Below the pieces are notes generated by a model, which did no database searches, was not told the origin of the DNA, and saw only the letters and a list, made by a program, of their open reading frames with translations. The translations under genes and the position numbers were made by a program. DNA of 14,580 nucleotides from Lachnospiraceae bacterium (GTDB lineage: Bacteria; Bacillota_A; Clostridia; Lachnospirales; Lachnospiraceae), in NCBI GenBank assembly GCA_017553965.1, contig JAFZJK010000031.1, positions 1-14,580 on the forward strand, in the 5' to 3' direction. Shown in pieces: positions 5,136 to 14,580 of this stretch. Each line of letters begins with the position of its first letter. Position 1 is the first letter of the stretch.

Positions 5136-5198
5136 ACACTGCAATATGTTTAACCCGGCATTAAGTTTAGGTTTTATGCCTGTCATCATTTGCAGTGT
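5136..5198 (-). promoter_or_regulatory. Structured 5' UTR, candidate cis-regulatory RNA with possible pseudoknot
   Basis: On the minus-strand transcript, a 9-bp outer stem (ACACUGCAA, plus 5190-5198, with UUGCAGUGU, plus 5136-5144) encloses a 5-bp hairpin GGCAU/AUGCC (plus 5176-5180 with 5157-5161). The hairpin loop contains AACCU, which can pair with GGGUU directly 3' of the hairpin, giving an H-type pseudoknot inside the outer stem. It starts within ~5 bases of the predicted transcription start and ends 11 bases before the GGAGG site. It matches no riboswitch class I can name. The outer repeat could instead be paired operator sites. Confidence 0.45.
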
Positions 5199-5208
5199 AC
5201 TTGTAATT

Positions 5209-5237
5209 ATTATACAGTAAAATATGTATTTTTACAA
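5209..5237 (-). promoter_or_regulatory. Sigma-A promoter for the 4317-5111 gene
   Basis: On the minus strand, TTGTAA (plus 5232-5237) is followed after exactly 17 bp by a perfect TATAAT (plus 5209-5214). Transcription would start near 5202, leaving a ~90-base 5' UTR before the ATG at 5111. Confidence 0.75.
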
Positions 5238-5290
5238 GGATTATTCGCAACAATTAAAGAAATTATTATGTTTTTTAAGGCATTTTTTAG

Positions 5291-5318
5291 TTTACATAAA
5301 AAAATTATATGGTATAAT
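5291..5318 (+). promoter_or_regulatory. Sigma-A promoter with extended -10 for the 5364-11613 operon
   Basis: TTTACA (5291-5296), a 16-bp spacer and a perfect extended -10, TGGTATAAT (5310-5318). The start point near 5325 is just upstream of ATG 5364 and downstream of the longer in-frame ORF beginning at 5190, which decides against that longer start. No terminator was seen from here to 11613. Confidence 0.78.
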
Positions 5319-5363
5319 GTATTTAGTGATTTTATGCTTAAGAATAATATATTTGGGGTGCTT

Positions 5364-7223
5364 ATGCGAAAGATATCAGCCGGACTGTTTTCTATAAAAA
5401 TCTTTTTAATCCTTTCGGTACTGTTTTTGGTACTTATTTTTGTTCCGAGAGCAGCTGTTTCTGCTTCGGAACTTGCGTTTGAACAGGACAGTATCGTTCT
5501 TTATGAAGGAAATACCCTCAGACTTAATCTAATATACGACGGACAGGAGTTTTTCCAGGATTCGGAAGAATTTGCCTATGACTGGTATGCTTACTTTGAG
5601 AGTGAAGACTCCGATATCGTTAGGGTATACTATGACGGCTCCATAGACTGCATGGGTACGGGCAAGACTGTTATAAAGGCTTATTATAACGGTTTGACGG
5701 CCGAATGTACCGTAAAGGTTAAAAAGAATAAGTTTAAGCTTTCGGAAACAGAGATCACGCTTTATTCCAATCAGTCGATGGATGTTAAGCTTTCCGGTAT
5801 CAAGAAGATAACAGAGTATGATTATACAACTTCCAACCTTGATCCCGATGCGGAGTATTCCTGGACCGATTCTCCGAAGGTGGAGATAAAGGGTGGTGGC
5901 AAATTTACAATAACTGCCGGCAAGAAAGGCAGACATGAGATCAGACTCATGGGTACCAATAAAAAAGGTGTCAGATATGCTAAAAAGCTGATAGTATATA
6001 CCGTGCAGGTCGGACCCGAGCAGGACGACATAAGTATAGCTAAAGGCTGCTCCAAGAGTATTAACATGATCGATTCCGAGATCACATCGGTCGAGCTTGT
6101 ATCGTGGACCGACGGAAACATGATCTATAGTGCTGATGTATATGGTACCGACGGAGGCTATATCGTAAGAGACGGCTTTGATTCCTTTACCACAAAAGAG
6201 GGTTGCCCCGATGAAGCAATGTCAACCTTCAGGATCGGATACGAGACAGAAGACGGTACACAGCTTTATTCTTATCTTAATATCATAGCTTACGAACCGG
6301 AATATGTTCCTTTTGACGAATATCTCTGGGTGGGACAAATATATGAGCCCGGTATACTCAATGCAACAGCGTATTCTGATATTAAATGTACATCCTCCGA
6401 TAAAGAGATACTCGAGATTAACGATTACGGTCAGCTTGTACCAAAAGCAAGCGGCAATGTTACTGTCAAGATAGATGTTGACGGCAAGATATTTAAAGAG
6501 GAACTGACAATAATAGATGTACATGTGGCAGGCAATAATCTGCTTACATGGACGGGTACAAAGTTTAGTTATAAAGTAACCGGAGCTCCTTCGGATATGA
6601 AGATATCTTATTCAAGTTCCGATCCTTCGGTAGCTTCGATATCTAAAAAGGGTACACTTAAGACCAAGAAAAAAGGCTTTACATTTATAACTGTTACGGT
6701 CGGAGACGTTGAGACGCAGTATACAGTAAATGTCGGTGATGAAACAGCAGTTAAGGCAGTGCTTTATGCAGGTGAATATGTCGGAAAAGCCAAGTATGAT
6801 CAGGGCAGACGTATGGAAGAAGGCTATTTTGACTGCAGTTCTCTGGCTTGGAGAAGCTATGCTAAGGCAGGCCTTAAGATACAGAATAATGATTATGCAC
6901 CGACATCGGCCGATCTTGCCAAGTATATGGATGAGAACGGTTATACAATAGCTTACGGAGATCTTAATCCTGAGGATCTATTACCGGGTGACCTGCTGTT
7001 TTATGCGGGAAGCTCCGATAACGGAAGGTTCATGAAGATAAATCACGTAGCTATGTATTACGGTACTGATTATTATTATGATTATTATGATTTCTGGACA
7101 GATACATTTGTTGAAGGACTGCAGGGGAGCATAGTCCATGCGGGGACCGGTGGAGGCGGAGTATACTTCAGTCCTTACCCCGGATACAGCGGAGCGGTAT
7201 TAATAGCAAGAATTTGTAAGTAG
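5364..7223 (+). CDS. Secreted NlpC/P60 cell-wall hydrolase with bacterial Ig-like repeats
   Basis: 619 residues. Residues 1-34 are a signal peptide with a long hydrophobic core, cleavable after VSA. Residues ~36-460 hold several Ig-like domains of the BIG2 type; clear ones run from LAFEQDSIVLYEG to ECTVKVK, then KFKLSETEITLYSN onward, and a last one at ~393-458 with SDPSVASISKKGTLKTKKKG. The C-terminus (~462-619) is an NlpC/P60 cysteine peptidase domain that would cut peptide links in peptidoglycan stems. Catalytic Cys491 lies in FDCSSLAW, His561 in NHVAMYYG and His592 in IVHAG, so the triad looks intact. Between the two histidines is an unusual Tyr/Asp-rich insertion. ATG 5364 follows GGGGTG closely (3 bases); ATG 5334 is a weaker alternative that would lengthen the N-terminus ahead of the signal peptide. 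First gene of a probable four-gene operon; the next starts 15 bases later. Confidence 0.88.
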   Translation: MRKISAGLFSIKIFLILSVLFLVLIFVPRAAVSASELAFEQDSIVLYEGNTLRLNLIYDGQEFFQDSEEFAYDWYAYFESEDSDIVRVYYDGSIDCMGTGKTVIKAYYNGLTAECTVKVKKNKFKLSETEITLYSNQSMDVKLSGIKKITEYDYTTSNLDPDAEYSWTDSPKVEIKGGGKFTITAGKKGRHEIRLMGTNKKGVRYAKKLIVYTVQVGPEQDDISIAKGCSKSINMIDSEITSVELVSWTDGNMIYSADVYGTDGGYIVRDGFDSFTTKEGCPDEAMSTFRIGYETEDGTQLYSYLNIIAYEPEYVPFDEYLWVGQIYEPGILNATAYSDIKCTSSDKEILEINDYGQLVPKASGNVTVKIDVDGKIFKEELTIIDVHVAGNNLLTWTGTKFSYKVTGAPSDMKISYSSSDPSVASISKKGTLKTKKKGFTFITVTVGDVETQYTVNVGDETAVKAVLYAGEYVGKAKYDQGRRMEEGYFDCSSLAWRSYAKAGLKIQNNDYAPTSADLAKYMDENGYTIAYGDLNPEDLLPGDLLFYAGSSDNGRFMKINHVAMYYGTDYYYDYYDFWTDTFVEGLQGSIVHAGTGGGGVYFSPYPGYSGAVLIARICK

Positions 7224-8612: not shown

Positions 8613-10295
8613 ATGGACAATGATCTGATATTAAATCAGCAAAGTTCCGTGGAAGAACATATCCCGTGGAATGTCTATCCCAGACCGCAGATGCGCAGGG
8701 ACAGCTTCTATAACTTAAACGGTGAATGGGATTTTGAAGTGGCTCAGTATGACTATCCTCCTAAAACATATTCTATGAGGATCACTGTACCTTATCCCGT
8801 GGAATCAAAGCTGTCGGGTATTGGAAAACACTTTAAAAAGGGGAGCAGGCTCTTTTACAGAAGATATTTTGATGCTCCGATAAAGCTTAGATGGAGAAGA
8901 GTACTGCTGCACTGCGGCGGTATAGACCAGAAAGCGGATATATTCATCAACGGACATTTTGTAATATCATGCTGTACGCCCATAGAGGGTCCGCTTGAGG
9001 TTGATATTACTCCGTTCCTTTTGGATGAAAATGAGCTGGTAATAAAAGTAATAGATGACATGGATAAAAATGTCCCTTACGGAAAGCAGAGTGAAAATCC
9101 GAAGGAAATCTGGTATTCACCGGTATCCGGCATATGGCAGACGGTATGGCTGGAGTCCGTACCCGAGTATTATATAAAGGGACTTAAGGTGACTACGACA
9201 CTTGACTATGCCGACATTGAGATATTCGGTGTTGACGAAGGCAGAGTTATGTTTGAGGGTAAGAGCTATCGTTTCTATGACGGAAAGATAAGGCTCACAC
9301 CTGTTGTTAAGAAACCATGGAGCCCTGCAGACCCGCATCTGTATTTCTTTACAGTGCAGGTAGGTAACGATAAGGTTGATTCTTATTTTGCACTTAGGAC
9401 TTTAGAGATAAAGGATGATTACGGGTTAAAACGTCTGTGCCTTAACGGAGAGTCATATTTCTTTAACGGTGTCATGCATCAGGGCTACTGGAAGGACGGT
9501 CTTTATACTCCGGAAAGAGCTGATGATTATAAGTTTGATATCATAGCCGCTAAAAACATGGGCTTTAATACCATAAGAAAGCACTTGAAGATAGAGCCCG
9601 AGGAGTTTTATTACCAATGTGATAAGCTCGGGATGATCGTATTTCAGGATATGGTCAATAACGGCAAATACTCTAAAGTAAGAGATATCGTTTTCCCTAT
9701 AATCGGTTTTACCAAGTTTTCCGACAAGTTTAAGCACAGGGGAAAGGTACAGAGAAGGTCATATATAAATGCTGCACAGAGTACGGTTAAAACACTTTAC
9801 AGCCATCCTTGTATCTGTTACTGGACACTGTTTAATGAGGGATGGGGCCAGTTCTGCAGCAGTCAGATATACGATCTGATAAAGGGCATGGATAAGACCC
9901 GTTTTATAGACAGTGCTTCCGGCTGGTTTAAGGGCGGAAAGACCGATGTAGAGTCGATTCATTGTTATTTCAAGAGGTTTAATCCTCCCAGGACAGAAAA
10001 GCCAATCATTCTTTCGGAGTTTGGGGGATATTCATTAAAGATAAAAGATCATGCCGAAGAAACCGCAGGATACGGATATAAGCAGTTTGATGATAAGCGT
10101 TCTTATCTTGAAGCTATAAGAAAACTGTATGAAGAAGATGTGATCCCGGCCATAGGTCTTGGCCTTTGCGGATGTATCTATACACAGTTCTGTGACATAG
10201 AACAGGAAACAAACGGACTGATCACCTATGACAGAAAATATATCAAGGCTGACGAGAATATTTTTAAGCCGTTTGAAAGCAGACTAACAATATAA
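8613..10295 (+). CDS. Glycoside hydrolase family 2 protein (beta-galactosidase/glucuronidase-like), intracellular
   Basis: 560 residues without a signal peptide, so a cytoplasmic exo-glycosidase. The domain order is that of compact GH2 enzymes. A sugar-binding jelly-roll spans ~18-180 (LNGEWDF, FYRRYFDAP, LHCGGIDQKADIFING, GIWQTVWLE). A shortened Ig-like segment covers ~185-270. The TIM barrel runs from ~275 (LCLNGESYFFNGVMHQG). The acid/base is probably Glu409 in LFNEGWGQF and the nucleophile Glu469 in ILSEFGG; both expected glutamates are present. The exact substrate (galactoside, glucuronide or mannoside) cannot be assigned. Many relatives are ~600 residues, so this is slightly short, mainly in the Ig-like part. 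It begins 3 bases after the AI-2E gene, with AGAGG (8597-8601) 11 bases upstream, suggesting translational coupling. Confidence 0.88.
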   Translation: MDNDLILNQQSSVEEHIPWNVYPRPQMRRDSFYNLNGEWDFEVAQYDYPPKTYSMRITVPYPVESKLSGIGKHFKKGSRLFYRRYFDAPIKLRWRRVLLHCGGIDQKADIFINGHFVISCCTPIEGPLEVDITPFLLDENELVIKVIDDMDKNVPYGKQSENPKEIWYSPVSGIWQTVWLESVPEYYIKGLKVTTTLDYADIEIFGVDEGRVMFEGKSYRFYDGKIRLTPVVKKPWSPADPHLYFFTVQVGNDKVDSYFALRTLEIKDDYGLKRLCLNGESYFFNGVMHQGYWKDGLYTPERADDYKFDIIAAKNMGFNTIRKHLKIEPEEFYYQCDKLGMIVFQDMVNNGKYSKVRDIVFPIIGFTKFSDKFKHRGKVQRRSYINAAQSTVKTLYSHPCICYWTLFNEGWGQFCSSQIYDLIKGMDKTRFIDSASGWFKGGKTDVESIHCYFKRFNPPRTEKPIILSEFGGYSLKIKDHAEETAGYGYKQFDDKRSYLEAIRKLYEEDVIPAIGLGLCGCIYTQFCDIEQETNGLITYDRKYIKADENIFKPFESRLTI

Positions 10296-10314: not shown

Positions 10315-11613
10315 TTGAGTTACAAGTTTAAGAACTGCATAATACTTGCTACAGATGAAAACGGTAATTTTACCGTACTAAGACATGAAGTATTGTGCGT
10401 AAAGGACGATAAGATCATATATATAGGACCGGAAGGCGAGGCACCCGCATGTGAGTGTGAGAAAGACATGAAGGGCAGCATTCTTATGCCCGGAATCGTT
10501 GATGCACACTGTCACGGACCGATGACACTGCTCAGAGGTGTAGGCGGTGGACTGGCATTACAGGACTGGCTTGAAAAAGCTATTTTCCCCATAGAGGATA
10601 AGTTAACACCTCTTGATGTGGAAAGAGGCGAGAGACTTGCCGTTATGGAAATGCTGGCATCAGGTATCACATATGTATCGGAAATGTATGATTTCCCGAA
10701 GGCTACCGGTATGGTACTTAGGGAGACAGGTATGCGTGCCAATATATGCAGAGTCGGTCTGTCGTTTTCTGAAGAAACACAGATACCTCCCGGAAGGTTT
10801 GAGGAATGTGTGGAACTGGTAAGAGACTGGAAAGACCCTGATGACAGGGTACGTGCAGAATTCTGTCTGCACTCGGAGTATCTGACCAATGAAGGTTTTG
10901 CAAGAAAGATTGCTGAGATAAACCGTGATTATAATGCTACAGTCAATATTCATGTATCCGAGACCAGAAAAGAGCATGAGGAGTGTAAGGCAAGGCATAA
11001 CGGTCTTACACCCATAGCATATCTTGAAAAATGCGGCATACTGGATAATAAAACATATGCAGCACATTGCGTATGGGTTGAGCCTGAAGATATGGAGATA
11101 ATGGCAGCTAAAGGAACATCCGCCATATTTAATCCAAGCAGCAACTGTAAACTTGCATCGGGCTTTGCACCTATTACTGAGCTTAAAAAAGCCGGCGTAA
11201 ATGTCGGTATTGGTACTGACGGTACAGCCAGCAACGATAACCTCAATATGTTTGAGGAAATGCATCTGGCTTCACTGATAATAAAAAATACCGGCAGGGA
11301 TGCTACATTAGCTACCGCAGAAGAGATATTAAAGATGGCTACGGTAAACGGAGCACGTGCCATGGGCAGGACCGATACAGGCGAGCTTAAATGCGGCATG
11401 AAGGCTGATATTATAGCCGTATCTCTTGAAAAGCCACACATGTTCCCGGCATTTGATATACCCAATATACTGGTATACAGTGCACAGGCTTCCGATGTGG
11501 TTATGACCATGGTAGACGGCCGTATACTTTATGAAAACGGTGAGTATACTACTTTAGATGCCGAAAAAGTTAAGGCTGAAATGCAGGAAAGTTTAAACTG
11601 GATATATAATTAA
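10315..11613 (+). CDS. mtaD: Amidohydrolase, probable 5'-methylthioadenosine/S-adenosylhomocysteine deaminase
   Basis: 432 residues. Members of this metal-dependent family deaminate adenosine-type nucleosides such as SAH or MTA to the inosine forms in the cytoplasm. Visible motifs: PGIVDAHCHGPMTLLRG with metal ligands His65 and His67, NIHVSET with His213 and Glu216, AAHCVWV with His251, NPSSNCKLASG, and GTDGTASNDNLNMFEEM with metal ligand Asp302. The C-terminus closes with TGELKCGMKADIIAV and VDGRILYENGEY. The GTDGxASNxxLxMFEEM motif is typical of MTA/SAH deaminases, but related deaminases cannot be excluded. The start is TTG 10315: GGAG (10304-10307) lies 7 bases upstream and no in-frame ATG occurs before residue ~50. 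It follows the GH2 gene by 19 bases and no terminator separates it from the riboswitch downstream. Confidence 0.86.
   Translation: MSYKFKNCIILATDENGNFTVLRHEVLCVKDDKIIYIGPEGEAPACECEKDMKGSILMPGIVDAHCHGPMTLLRGVGGGLALQDWLEKAIFPIEDKLTPLDVERGERLAVMEMLASGITYVSEMYDFPKATGMVLRETGMRANICRVGLSFSEETQIPPGRFEECVELVRDWKDPDDRVRAEFCLHSEYLTNEGFARKIAEINRDYNATVNIHVSETRKEHEECKARHNGLTPIAYLEKCGILDNKTYAAHCVWVEPEDMEIMAAKGTSAIFNPSSNCKLASGFAPITELKKAGVNVGIGTDGTASNDNLNMFEEMHLASLIIKNTGRDATLATAEEILKMATVNGARAMGRTDTGELKCGMKADIIAVSLEKPHMFPAFDIPNILVYSAQASDVVMTMVDGRILYENGEYTTLDAEKVKAEMQESLNWIYN
11605..11610 (+). promoter_or_regulatory. Candidate -10 box for the cobalamin riboswitch transcript
   Basis: A perfect TATAAT lies just before the stop codon (11611-11613) of the deaminase gene. 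It would start transcription near 11617, right at the 5' edge of the riboswitch. No convincing -35 was found at 16-18 bp spacing, so it is a candidate only; read-through from the upstream operon is the alternative. Confidence 0.4.
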
Positions 11614-11619
11614 TGTTAA

Positions 11620-11860
11620 TAAGCGGTAACGGAGTAAGGAATCAGGTGAAAAACCTGAGCGGGCCCGCCGCCGTAAATAAACTATATTTACATGTCTGAA
11701 AGACTTCCTATTGAGGGAAGCTGACTGACGAGGTGTAAATACATATCAAGCGGAGAGAAAAGCAGCCGCAAAGCTTTTCTCTTAAATGCCATTGAAGCTT
11801 TTGCTTTGAGAAGGTACGTGCGATATGAATGTTTATGAGCCGGAAGACTTAGCCGTGTTT
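11620..11860 (+). promoter_or_regulatory. Cobalamin (B12) riboswitch
   Basis: The conserved core is clear. GGAATCAGGTGAAAAACCTG (11638-11657) corresponds to the GGAAxxxGGTGxAAxxCC block, GCGGGCCCGCCGCCGTAA (11659-11676) to GCGGxCCCGCCxCTGTAA, and CGGAGAG (11751-11757), GCCATTG and GAGAAGGTAC follow in the usual order. The B12 box is GAGCCGGAAGACTTAGCC (11837-11854). CGGT (11624-11627) can pair with GCCG (11852-11855) to close the aptamer. Between CCGTAA and CGGAGAG there is a ~70-base extra insertion (see findings). The 371-base gap before ATG 11985 holds this aptamer plus a short downstream region with a hairpin at 11933-11956 and a weak hairpin over the GGAGG site (11966-11977). In this family, binding of a cobalamin normally lowers expression of the downstream gene. 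No intrinsic terminator was seen, so control of translation is more likely. Confidence 0.93.
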
Positions 11861-11901
11861 TCTGTAGACCATTGTGTCGTCTGCGAGCACCGGATATCAT
11901 T

Positions 11902-11929
11902 TTGATTACAGGAAGCTGCTTAATATAAT
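11902..11929 (+). promoter_or_regulatory. Candidate promoter between riboswitch and first surface-protein gene
   Basis: TTGATT (11902-11907), a 16-bp spacer and a perfect TATAAT (11924-11929). If used, it would make a transcript that lacks the riboswitch aptamer. Chance matches are frequent in AT-rich leaders, so this is tentative. Confidence 0.3.
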
Positions 11930-11984
11930 ACGGTCTTTTAACTTAAGGGAGAAGACTGTAATTTATCTCTATGGAGGACATAAA

Positions 11985-12914
11985 ATGAAGAAGAAATTAG
12001 CTAAATTTATGTCTATGATCATGATTGCGGCATTGATCGTGACAAGTTATACCGGCTTTTCCGGTAATGTTAGTGCATACGCTGACGAAGGTGATACACC
12101 TTTACTGATTGCTACCGCTACAGTACCTTCAGAGGCAACAGTGTATGTTACTATTTCTAACAAGGGTGACCTTGTTGTAAGACAGCAGTCCGTTACAGTT
12201 ATGGATACTGATGATGACGGAGCTCTTACTATCTCAGACGCTCTTTACTGTGCGCATGAAAAGTACTACAAGGGCGGCGCAGCTGAAGGTTATGGCGCAG
12301 AGGTTGGACAGTGGGGTTTAGGCGTTACAAAGCTCTGGGGCGATACCTCAGGAAACTTTGGATACTATGTAAATGATATCATGTCTATGGGAGCAAGTGA
12401 TCCCATAAGTGACGGTGATTATCTTAATGCATGGGTATATGTAAATTCAGATTTTTCAGATCAGTATGCATTCTTTAATACCCGTAAGTTAGGTATTAAG
12501 ATAGGTCAGAAAAAGACCATCAGACTTTATACAGCAGGTTTTGATGCAAATTGGGCTCAGGTTAACAGCCCCTTAAAGAATGCTGTTATCACTATCGGTG
12601 GTGAGCCTACAGAGTATGGTACAAGTAAGAAGGGTGGATTTAAGTTCTCAGCTAACCAGTCAGGCAGTTATTTCCTTTCAGCCTTTTCTGAGGATGCTAC
12701 TATAGTACCTCCCACACTTATCGTATTTGTTCAGCCTGAAAAAGGTGAAGTTATCGAAGTAAAGAATAAGAAATATACCGTTACCAAGCTTGGTACAGTT
12801 AAGACAGGAAAGAAGGGTAAGGTTACCTTCTCCAAGTCAGCAAACGAAGGTAAGGAAGCTCCCAAGACAGTTGAATACGCAGGAGTTACTTACAAGGTTA
12901 AAGTAGTTGACTGA
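11985..12914 (+). CDS. Secreted DUF4430-like surface protein under B12 riboswitch control
   Basis: 309 residues. A signal peptide (1-33) has a hydrophobic core IMIAALIV and a likely AYA cleavage site before Asp34. Residues ~50-165 resemble the DUF4430/transcobalamin C-terminal beta domain type: VYVTISNKGDLVV, then TISDALYCAHE, GYYVNDIMSMGAS and SDGDYLNAWVYV, matching the usual order of 'x-DAL', 'GYYVN' and 'DGD-x-x-W-x-Y'. Inside is an EF-hand-like loop DTDDDGALTISD (74-85). Residues ~168-250 look like an Ig-like domain. The last ~55 (KKYTVTKLG ... VEYAGVTYKVKVVD) resemble a surface-protein repeat seen in Lachnospiraceae. There is no LPXTG, lipobox or membrane anchor. ATG 11985 has GGAGG (11973-11977) 7 bases upstream; a longer in-frame ORF from 11874 runs through the riboswitch leader and is rejected. 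Cobalamin binding is inferred from family and riboswitch. Confidence 0.82.
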   Translation: MKKKLAKFMSMIMIAALIVTSYTGFSGNVSAYADEGDTPLLIATATVPSEATVYVTISNKGDLVVRQQSVTVMDTDDDGALTISDALYCAHEKYYKGGAAEGYGAEVGQWGLGVTKLWGDTSGNFGYYVNDIMSMGASDPISDGDYLNAWVYVNSDFSDQYAFFNTRKLGIKIGQKKTIRLYTAGFDANWAQVNSPLKNAVITIGGEPTEYGTSKKGGFKFSANQSGSYFLSAFSEDATIVPPTLIVFVQPEKGEVIEVKNKKYTVTKLGTVKTGKKGKVTFSKSANEGKEAPKTVEYAGVTYKVKVVD

Positions 12915-12941
12915 TAATCTTAAACTAAGAAACATGAAATG

Positions 12942-12977
12942 TAGTATGCGCTTCCCACAAAAGGGAGGCGCATACTA
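12942..12977 (+). other. Strong intergenic stem-loop without T-run
   Basis: A 15-bp stem pairs 12942-12951 with 12968-12977 (arm TAGTATGCGC) and continues through TTCCC/GGGAG around the loop ACAAAA. It starts 28 bases after the upstream stop. The 3' side continues AATATC with no T-run on either strand, so it is unlike a standard intrinsic terminator. It could protect the upstream mRNA 3' end or partly stop transcription, giving more of the secreted protein than of the membrane protein. Confidence 0.7.
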
Positions 12978-13002
12978 ATATCAATCATTGGGACGGTTTT
13001 AT

Positions 13003-14580
13003 ATGAAAAAGAAGATACTGTTTTATATAATACTTAGTTTTGCATTTATATTCCTTTGTCTTGGGAAAGTTATTCCGGCAAAGGCTGATTATGATGCATC
13101 AAATGATGTTAAAGGTATTATAGACGGTATCATTTTTTTTAATACAGGAAACACAGAAGATTCAAGTGAAGCGGTTTCGAAAGAATCACGAGATATAAAG
13201 ATCAAAGAATATGTAGAAAATACTCTGCCTAATAACATCGGCGGCACAGCGGAATGGTATGCATTGGGACTTTATCAGTACGGAGATTATGATTTTACCG
13301 CATATAGAAAAGCGCTGGTAAATTACCTAAGTGAAAAAGAGATAGGCGGAGCTTCTACAAGACTTAAGTTTGCGTTGCTTTTGGCCTTTGTTTCCGATGA
13401 TGGTGATATAGACAAAGCAACAGGCAGATTATATGATTCGGATTTTATCGAAAAAGCTTTAAACGATGATTCCATAGGCGGACAGGGTATCATGAGCTAC
13501 GTGTTCGGCCTGCATCTGTATAATAACGGATATAAAGGTGCTGTTTCCGAAGAGGAGATAATCGATACATTCAGGGAACTTCAGCATGAGGATGGTGGCT
13601 GGTCTGTTATGGGGGATAACGGTGATGTGGACGTAACCGCCATGGTACTACAGGCACTGGCTCCATTGACTGATAAAGCTTTTGTACCGGATCCGGGAAA
13701 TACCGAGACAGGACTTACCGAATATACCGCATCTATCATTACGATGGCTAAACGAGGGATAGAGTTCTTATCGGAAAAACAGGATGATGATGGCGGATAT
13801 GCAGGTTTTGGAGTCAAAAATGCGGAGAGTACCGCACAGGTTATAGCAGCTATGTCAGCTCTGGGTATTGACTGTGCGACTGATGCAAGATTTGTAAAGA
13901 ACGGTAATTCACCTATAGACGGAATTGCTAAATTCAAACTGGAGGACGGCAGTTTTTCTCATGATGAAAGCGGGGTGTCAAGTCCATCCGCAACAGTACA
14001 GACCTTTTATTCCATGGTAGCTTATCTTAGGATGAAGGAAGGATTGTCACCTCTGTATGTGAAAGACAGTAATGAAAAGAAACTCGTCGAAATATACGGT
14101 GAGAAGATCAATACTGATACTCAGGATGAAAAAGATGGTAATGAACCCGGTATCAATACTGATAGTGACGGTAATAACGGGGATAAATCCGATGTAAATA
14201 ATAACGGCTTTAACAGTGATAGCAGTAATAAAAACGATGTCATTGATAAAACGCCAAATGATAACAATGTATCATCCGGTTCAGGTTACAAGCCTATTGC
14301 AATAGCGATACTTGCAGGTGTGTGTCTTTTGATATGCGGAATACTGTTTGCCCTTAAAAAGCATTGGAAAAACTTTCTGTTTGTCGGTATAGTTGGTATT
14401 ATCGGCGTATTGATCATCATACTCACCGATTTTTCCAAGCCTGAGGATTATTATGGAAAGGCTACCGACAAGGAAAATACGGTAGGTACCGTAACCATGT
14501 CCATACGCTGCGATATATTAAAGGATAAAGAACGTAACGAACATATACCTGAGGATTATTGTATACTCGATACCACGGAG
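13003..14580 (+). CDS. Transcobalamin-like membrane-anchored protein: alpha/alpha toroid plus DUF4430 domain (3' end outside window)
   Basis: Open from ATG 13003 to the window end, 526 residues visible. A signal peptide covers 1-28 (PAKA before Asp29). Residues ~75-345 form about six helical repeats of the terpenoid-cyclase/prenyltransferase toroid type: three IGG-starting units (near 79, 114, 157) and three with DGGW (198-201), DGGY (263-266) and DGSF (315-318), each followed by a helix such as TAMVLQALAPL. An Asn/Asp/Ser-rich linker spans ~360-428. Two hydrophobic helices (~431-451 and 457-475), separated by KKHWKN, form a membrane hairpin. From ~496, TVTMSIRCDILKD and IPEDYCILDTTE match the start of a DUF4430 domain. 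Both folded modules would face outward. An alpha-barrel followed by a DUF4430-type domain is the order in intrinsic factor and transcobalamin, so corrinoid capture is inferred. The ribosome site GGGACGG (12990-12996) is weak. Confidence 0.85.
   Translation, partial: MKKKILFYIILSFAFIFLCLGKVIPAKADYDASNDVKGIIDGIIFFNTGNTEDSSEAVSKESRDIKIKEYVENTLPNNIGGTAEWYALGLYQYGDYDFTAYRKALVNYLSEKEIGGASTRLKFALLLAFVSDDGDIDKATGRLYDSDFIEKALNDDSIGGQGIMSYVFGLHLYNNGYKGAVSEEEIIDTFRELQHEDGGWSVMGDNGDVDVTAMVLQALAPLTDKAFVPDPGNTETGLTEYTASIITMAKRGIEFLSEKQDDDGGYAGFGVKNAESTAQVIAAMSALGIDCATDARFVKNGNSPIDGIAKFKLEDGSFSHDESGVSSPSATVQTFYSMVAYLRMKEGLSPLYVKDSNEKKLVEIYGEKINTDTQDEKDGNEPGINTDSDGNNGDKSDVNNNGFNSDSSNKNDVIDKTPNDNNVSSGSGYKPIAIAILAGVCLLICGILFALKKHWKNFLFVGIVGIIGVLIIILTDFSKPEDYYGKATDKENTVGTVTMSIRCDILKDKERNEHIPEDYCILDTTE

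Follow-up and report, generated by a model that had tools for sequence, protein, structure and literature searches.

Surface-assisted uptake of vitamin B12 (cobalamin) and its import by energy-coupling factor (ECF) transporters are both known kinds of system. The animal carriers of B12, namely intrinsic factor, transcobalamin and haptocorrin, are single chains that combine an alpha/alpha toroid with a beta domain. In Gram-positive bacteria the Isd haem relay has binders on the wall and membrane that pass a cofactor to an importer, as we propose below for corrinoids, but it uses NEAT domains, carries haem and depends on an ATP-binding cassette (ABC) importer with a lipoprotein. We analyzed a 14,580-nucleotide stretch of DNA from a Lachnospiraceae bacterium (assembly GCA_017553965.1, contig JAFZJK010000031.1; this whole stretch is referred to as the window), in which a cobalamin riboswitch precedes two genes, here termed gene1 and gene2. 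In relatives these genes are accompanied by those of an ECF transporter. The locus is very probably an operon for uptake of B12 or other corrinoids, and we hold with good confidence that it serves both capture and import under control of the riboswitch.

BtuG and BtuH of Bacteroidetes (PMC6977713, PMC8941943) likewise are surface proteins whose genes accompany those for B12 uptake and cobamide riboswitches. In the excerpts of these papers, however, BtuG is a beta-propeller acting with BtuB (PMC6977713), BtuH is a lipoprotein whose B12 domain is barely similar to other known structures (PMC8941943), and neither is described as a toroid plus DUF4430. BtuG2 is reported to compete with human intrinsic factor for B12 in vitro (PMC6977713). 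The excerpts of PMC6977713 also state that btuFCD occurs without btuB in many Gram-positive gut species, and cite the ECF transporter of Lactobacillus delbrueckii. ECF-CbrT of this species (PMC5997447, in excerpt) is akin to the present system in its S component and in an ECF module with EcfT and ECF ATPases, whereas the operon described here has its own T component and fused AA' ATPase, an S component with an N-terminal extension of about 60 residues, two surface proteins and a riboswitch. CbrT homologs and paralogs are reported from gut genomes, and finding B12 transport systems is named an open problem (PMC6593275, in excerpt). In the excerpt of PMC4350170, DUF4430 is mentioned for fish proteins. 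A structure of the domain alone (3u7z, RUMGNA_00854 of Ruminococcus gnavus) was deposited as a putative metal-binding protein, and a search by this locus name found no published function. Searches of an open-licence full-text library gave no recognisable account of such an operon with an intrinsic-factor-like anchored protein; the 2009 survey of ECF transporters by Rodionov and colleagues may hold an earlier prediction.

Riboswitch, gene order and importer genes

The first-pass annotation, made from the sequence of the window, had placed a cobalamin riboswitch ahead of a secreted protein, and this is borne out. Rfam places RF00174 at 11607-11784 on the + strand with 35.3 bits against a gathering score of 31.5 (E 6e-6), the sole match above an Rfam cut-off in the window, and gene1 follows. 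Alignment with relatives shows the leader to be conserved to about 11897. In one relative (L034), which the RF00174 model matches at 48 bits, the 3' half of the match is formed by the strand GAGCCGGAAGACTTAGCCG, the window counterpart of which lies at about 11837-11855 in the leader alignment; given this strand and the extent of leader conservation, the aptamer very likely reaches past the end assigned by Rfam. The ribosome-binding site of gene1, GGAGGA (11973-11978, +), was identified from the sequence and is kept in eight aligned leaders. A search of the + strand from 11500 to 13100 gave no terminator-like site.

It had also been proposed to look past position 14580 for transport genes, and these were found in relatives, from which the DNA 3' of the window was taken. 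The chief source was the nearest genome, G001, whose gene2 is 98% identical to that of the window across the window's part; the window's own genome presumably continues in the same way. Past gene2, G001 encodes a 292-residue protein at the EcfT position, a fused double ATPase (559 residues), a metallo-beta-lactamase-fold protein (228 residues) and an S component (228 residues). The fused ATPase, EcfAA', passes TIGR04520, and the S component passes PF07155 and PF12822. CbiQ is passed by the T protein of four of five homologs tested, the exception being that of G001, which lacks any substantial Pfam match. ATPase, T and S components of an ECF transporter are thus encoded together in relatives, outside the window. 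A profile of 26 S components compared with the PDB matched CbrT (6FNP_A) at 4.1e-13, with the next best match at 0.032; 6FNP is the B12 transporter ECF-CbrT (PMC5997447, in excerpt). By this kinship the S component is of CbrT type and is predicted to transport B12.

With each GTDB species represented by a single genome, a scan yielded 310 gene2 relatives, and the counts of loci and genomes given here rest on the best 80. Gene presence was judged by iterated HMMER searches on open reading frames (ORFs) of at least 60 residues; contig ends lower the counts, and one locus (L097) in which the gene2 ORF was not called is included among those scored for partners. On the same strand near gene2 we found gene1 in 64/80 loci, EcfT in 69/80, the ATPase in 75/80 and EcfS in 68/80, with all four partners close by in 53/80. 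The common order is gene1-gene2-T-AA'-S; in three loci (L067, L104, L113) T-AA'-S comes first, and there the riboswitch stands before T. Named hosts belong to the Clostridia, with Lachnospiraceae and Ruminococcus among them; many come from ruminants, and cultured Ruminococcus flavefaciens is included. Retention of the gene1/gene2 pair with an ECF transporter across genera places the observation beyond chance.

Homologs were also surveyed for B12 riboswitches, as the annotation had suggested, and the association holds widely. In 30/80 genomes (26 over the cut-off) an RF00174 match on the strand of gene2 lies no more than 6 kb upstream of it, and wherever both share a contig (30 genomes) the copy nearest to gene2 is on its strand and upstream, where about 0.08 would be expected by chance, assuming 2.8 Mb per genome; stricter filters were used for RF00174 scoring in 47/80 genomes. 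In Ruminococcus, RF00174 lies elsewhere in the genome than the gene2 locus; a lowered Rfam threshold applied to three of these loci revealed an AdoCbl-II riboswitch (RF01689) directly before gene1. AdoCbl-II gave 24 matches in the 80 genomes, 23 of them at 0.99-1.31 kb upstream of gene2 and one (G049) on another contig. One or both classes precede gene2 on the same strand in 50/80 genomes, nine of these by matches below the curated cut-offs and the remaining 41/80 over them. The presence of two B12 riboswitch classes argues that B12 status governs these genes. Among the 12 stretches from the genus of the window, seven have RF00174 (L034-L038, L042, L043), and one (L033) starts within gene1.

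Several loci vary this layout. G082 has a second RF00174 just 3' of gene2, before EcfT, on top of the upstream copy. In G017, which belongs to a different family of the order, the toroid is encoded apart from the DUF4430 protein, by two genes standing directly ahead of EcfT (L019:1330-3792), and an S-like region lies further on in an 845-residue frame. A Peripla_BP_2 lipoprotein and a Na+/H+ antiporter-family protein are inserted between gene1 and gene2 in G011 (L042:9097-12255), and a similar-looking antiporter start lies 3' of gene1 in G007. On contig C34 of G095 (19265-25737) a second, longer toroid-related frame (1153 residues) is found with a 536-residue frame, with two RF00174 matches ahead.

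Domain structure of gene2 and gene1

Gene2 (13003-14580, +; 526 codons, open at the window end) begins with a signal, and a full-length relative is found at L033:5557-7419 on the - strand. The structure model and fold searches assign residues 32-348 (13096-14046) to an alpha/alpha toroid, and the model assigns residues 429-474 (14287-14424) to a hairpin of two transmembrane segments with a short positively charged loop, which by the positive-inside rule would put the toroid and the beta domain on the same, outer side. The DUF4430 beta domain starts at 14479 and is cut by the window end at 14580; because the window contains only its start, PF14478 was tested on the full-length G001 relative and matched at 7.1e-17 (62.1 bits against a gathering score of 23.8). 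The toroid, membrane anchor and DUF4430 start of the first-pass annotation are therefore all present. A protein search returned at least 1289 relatives of gene2 at E <= 0.001.

With the gene2 model, Foldseek ranked transcobalamin, intrinsic factor and haptocorrin at positions 1-14 (E 1.9e-7 to 2.2e-5, over 570-615 columns), consistent with the toroid and beta domain that gene2, like these carriers, has in one chain. In contrast to them, gene2 is bacterial, has a transmembrane hairpin between the modules, is encoded with an importer and lacks a sequence match to the carriers' PDB chains; its binding of B12 is a prediction.

Gene1 (11985-12914, +) encodes a protein of 309 residues with a hydrophobic N-terminal signal. 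Its listed ORF begins at an upstream GTG; we preferred the ATG at 11985, six bases past GGAGGA. Residues 49-158 (12129-12458) have the fold of a transcobalamin-type beta domain and include an EF-hand-like loop, D-x-D-x-D-G (D74, D76, D78, D85), and residues 159-251 (12459-12737) form an Ig-like domain. The top fold matches of its AlphaFold model are the haptocorrin and transcobalamin beta domains and the DUF4430-like 3u7z. The matches listed by a protein search include 200 homologs at E <= 0.001.

Among 65 gene1 proteins (64 loci and the window), a hydropathy script found a C-terminal hydrophobic segment in 53, and 41 have PxTG within the last 60 residues, often as SPKTGD; seven, that of the window included, end in VKVVD without such an anchor. 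Because most homologs have these anchors, gene1 is probably surface-held as a rule. Two homologs end in a type I dockerin (L109:7394-8959, 1.5e-9; L114:7405-8955, 1.1e-9), so in some Ruminococcus a domain of B12-carrier type may ride on the cellulosome. A solitary gene1 homolog in G030 (L130:5339-6572) has its own RF00174 about 100 bases ahead, on a different contig from the gene2 operon.

Several results weigh against corrinoid capture by these proteins. Whole-chain TM-scores of gene2 to transcobalamin are 0.26-0.33 (by query length), so that toroid and beta domain match singly and not as one rigid body. The toroid by itself is closest to terpene cyclases in both fold and sequence searches. 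A second fold search with gene2 had toroid enzymes in all 50 matches listed, the animal B12 carriers not being among them. PDB sequence searches with gene2, its beta domain and its toroid gave matches to toroid enzymes or alpha-2-macroglobulin-like proteins, or matches by chance, with none of the three animal carriers among those listed; Cobalamin_bind, the Pfam family of the eukaryotic carriers, was not among matches at E <= 0.1 in the full-length relative. For gene1, DUF4430 (PF14478) was not among Pfam matches at E <= 0.1, below its gathering score, and profile comparison with the gene2 beta domain gave no match. At the level of loci, no riboswitch was found upstream of gene2 in 30/80 genomes. 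Four of these (L045, L086, L101, L103) have less than 1 kb upstream of gene2, and in L045 the contig breaks within gene1 and RF00174 lies ahead of gene1 on the other piece, a match not counted among the positives. Within the genus of the window, L039, L040 and L041 have the genes and no RF00174 over the cut-off, L044 has gene2 without an adjoining gene1, and G007, rated 100% complete, has the riboswitch and gene1 with no gene2 match; its EcfS is cut (a 149-residue frame), so an assembly gap may explain the missing gene2.

The corrinoid-capture proposal of the first-pass annotation is partly supported. Its term "DUF4430-like" for gene1 applies by fold (the AlphaFold model) and not by Pfam or profile comparison.

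An alternative is that the ECF importer handles corrinoids alone, with gene1 and gene2 serving adhesion, wall or cellulosome scaffolding, or sensing. The Ig-like domains, anchors and two dockerins among gene1 relatives would fit such roles, and ECF-CbrT of L. delbrueckii needs no such partners to give B12-dependent growth in E. coli (PMC5997447, in excerpt). Yet gene1 stands near gene2 in 64/80 loci, mostly between the riboswitch and the ECF genes, the beta domains of both proteins are best matched by B12 carriers, and the separate toroid and DUF4430 genes of G017 still lie directly ahead of EcfT. We therefore regard this alternative as unlikely.

Probable need for B12 and the predicted ligand

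The corrin-ring enzyme CbiD, used as a single marker, was found in none of 13 genomes of the window's genus, most of them incomplete and one rated 100% complete. A B12-binding domain is present in 12/13, in frames of 825-876 residues in 11 of the 12, EcfS in 13/13 and gene2 in 12/13 (all but G007). On these results the bacteria probably use corrinoids without making them.

B12 riboswitches frequently govern cobalt ECF transporters, and the T component belongs to the CbiQ family in four of the five homologs tested, so that the operon might import cobalt instead of corrinoids. The S component is, however, CbrT-like (PF07155/PF12822), the CbiM family is not listed for it, and without CbiD, even as a single marker, the 13 genomes would have little use for cobalt in corrin synthesis. 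On the identity of the S component and the absence of CbiD, a cobalt transporter was set aside as highly improbable.

The N-terminal ends of inner helices point to the ligand in transcobalamin. In a 67-row alignment of gene2, the best conserved barrel positions are those at the N-termini of the six inner toroid helices, with a mean of 0.693 (reached in 0/5000 random draws) against 0.583 for the barrel; helices were assigned as inner by their order in the model. The residues concerned are E84-W85-Y86, R120/K122, Q161/S165, D208/D210/T212, E275/S276/Q279 and T331/Q333. This pattern is suggestive of the predicted corrinoid pocket, and a structural cause would also be compatible with it. We consider it likely that gene2 binds a corrinoid. 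That gene2 is instead a toroid-class enzyme (a terpene cyclase or sugar-active), perhaps trimming corrinoids ahead of uptake, is hardly probable: its toroid does resemble terpene cyclases, but their class II motif DxDD occurs in only 4/67 alignment rows, conservation at the inner-helix N-termini fits a lid-facing pocket, and we know of no part played by an attached DUF4430 domain in toroid-class enzymes; the enzyme was set aside on the scarcity of DxDD and the conservation pattern.

Proposed pathway and neighbouring genes

The genes, their order, the riboswitches, the folds and the kinship of the S component are observations on sequence or model, and the pathway that we propose from them is as follows. 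When cobalamin is low in the cell, the riboswitch would allow expression of the operon. Gene1 and gene2 would be exported, gene1 binding corrinoids at or near the surface, and membrane-held gene2 would clamp the corrinoid between its two modules, toroid and beta domain, as intrinsic factor and transcobalamin do. Gene2 would then hand it to the CbrT-like S component, which the ECF module would energise for import. For the complete relay from gene1 through gene2 to the S component we see somewhat less than an even chance. Slightly more tentative still is the wider proposal of a Gram-positive B12 relay, in which a clostridial, intrinsic-factor-like membrane clamp beside a CbrT-like ECF importer is fed by a second protein, of B12-carrier type, held on the wall or, in some Ruminococcus, docked to the cellulosome, and in which the clamp and the animal carriers may share one ancestral toroid-plus-DUF4430 design.

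The operon suggests how Gram-positive gut bacteria unable to make B12 may catch corrinoids without BtuB. It names five proteins for testing, links corrinoid uptake with a domain of unknown function and provides a bacterial parallel to the B12 carriers of animals. Because cultured R. flavefaciens strains carry it, the operon can be tested directly. It has a bearing, too, on B12 competition in the rumen, where the host relies on microbial B12.

In Ruminococcus, a different gene set also follows RF00174 (L127:605-5907), comprising a CbiK-family protein that resembles a lipoprotein (PF06180, 1.5e-83), a second protein that NEAT matches weakly, a Peripla_BP_2 protein, FecCD and an ABC ATPase. An extracytoplasmic CbiK homolog next to a BtuFCD-type transporter is odd. 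L125, L126, L128 and L132 have gene sets similar to that of L127, the one on which Pfam was run.

Directly before the riboswitch in the window lies an amidohydrolase of the MTA/SAH/5'-deoxyadenosine deaminase kind (10315-11613), which is probably a mere neighbour since it is near gene2 in 6/80 loci. The window further encodes a GH43 plus CBM6 protein (953-2680), a Big_2 plus NlpC/P60 surface protein (5190-7223) and a GH2-like protein (8613-10295), all ordinary for a fibre-degrading gut bacterium.

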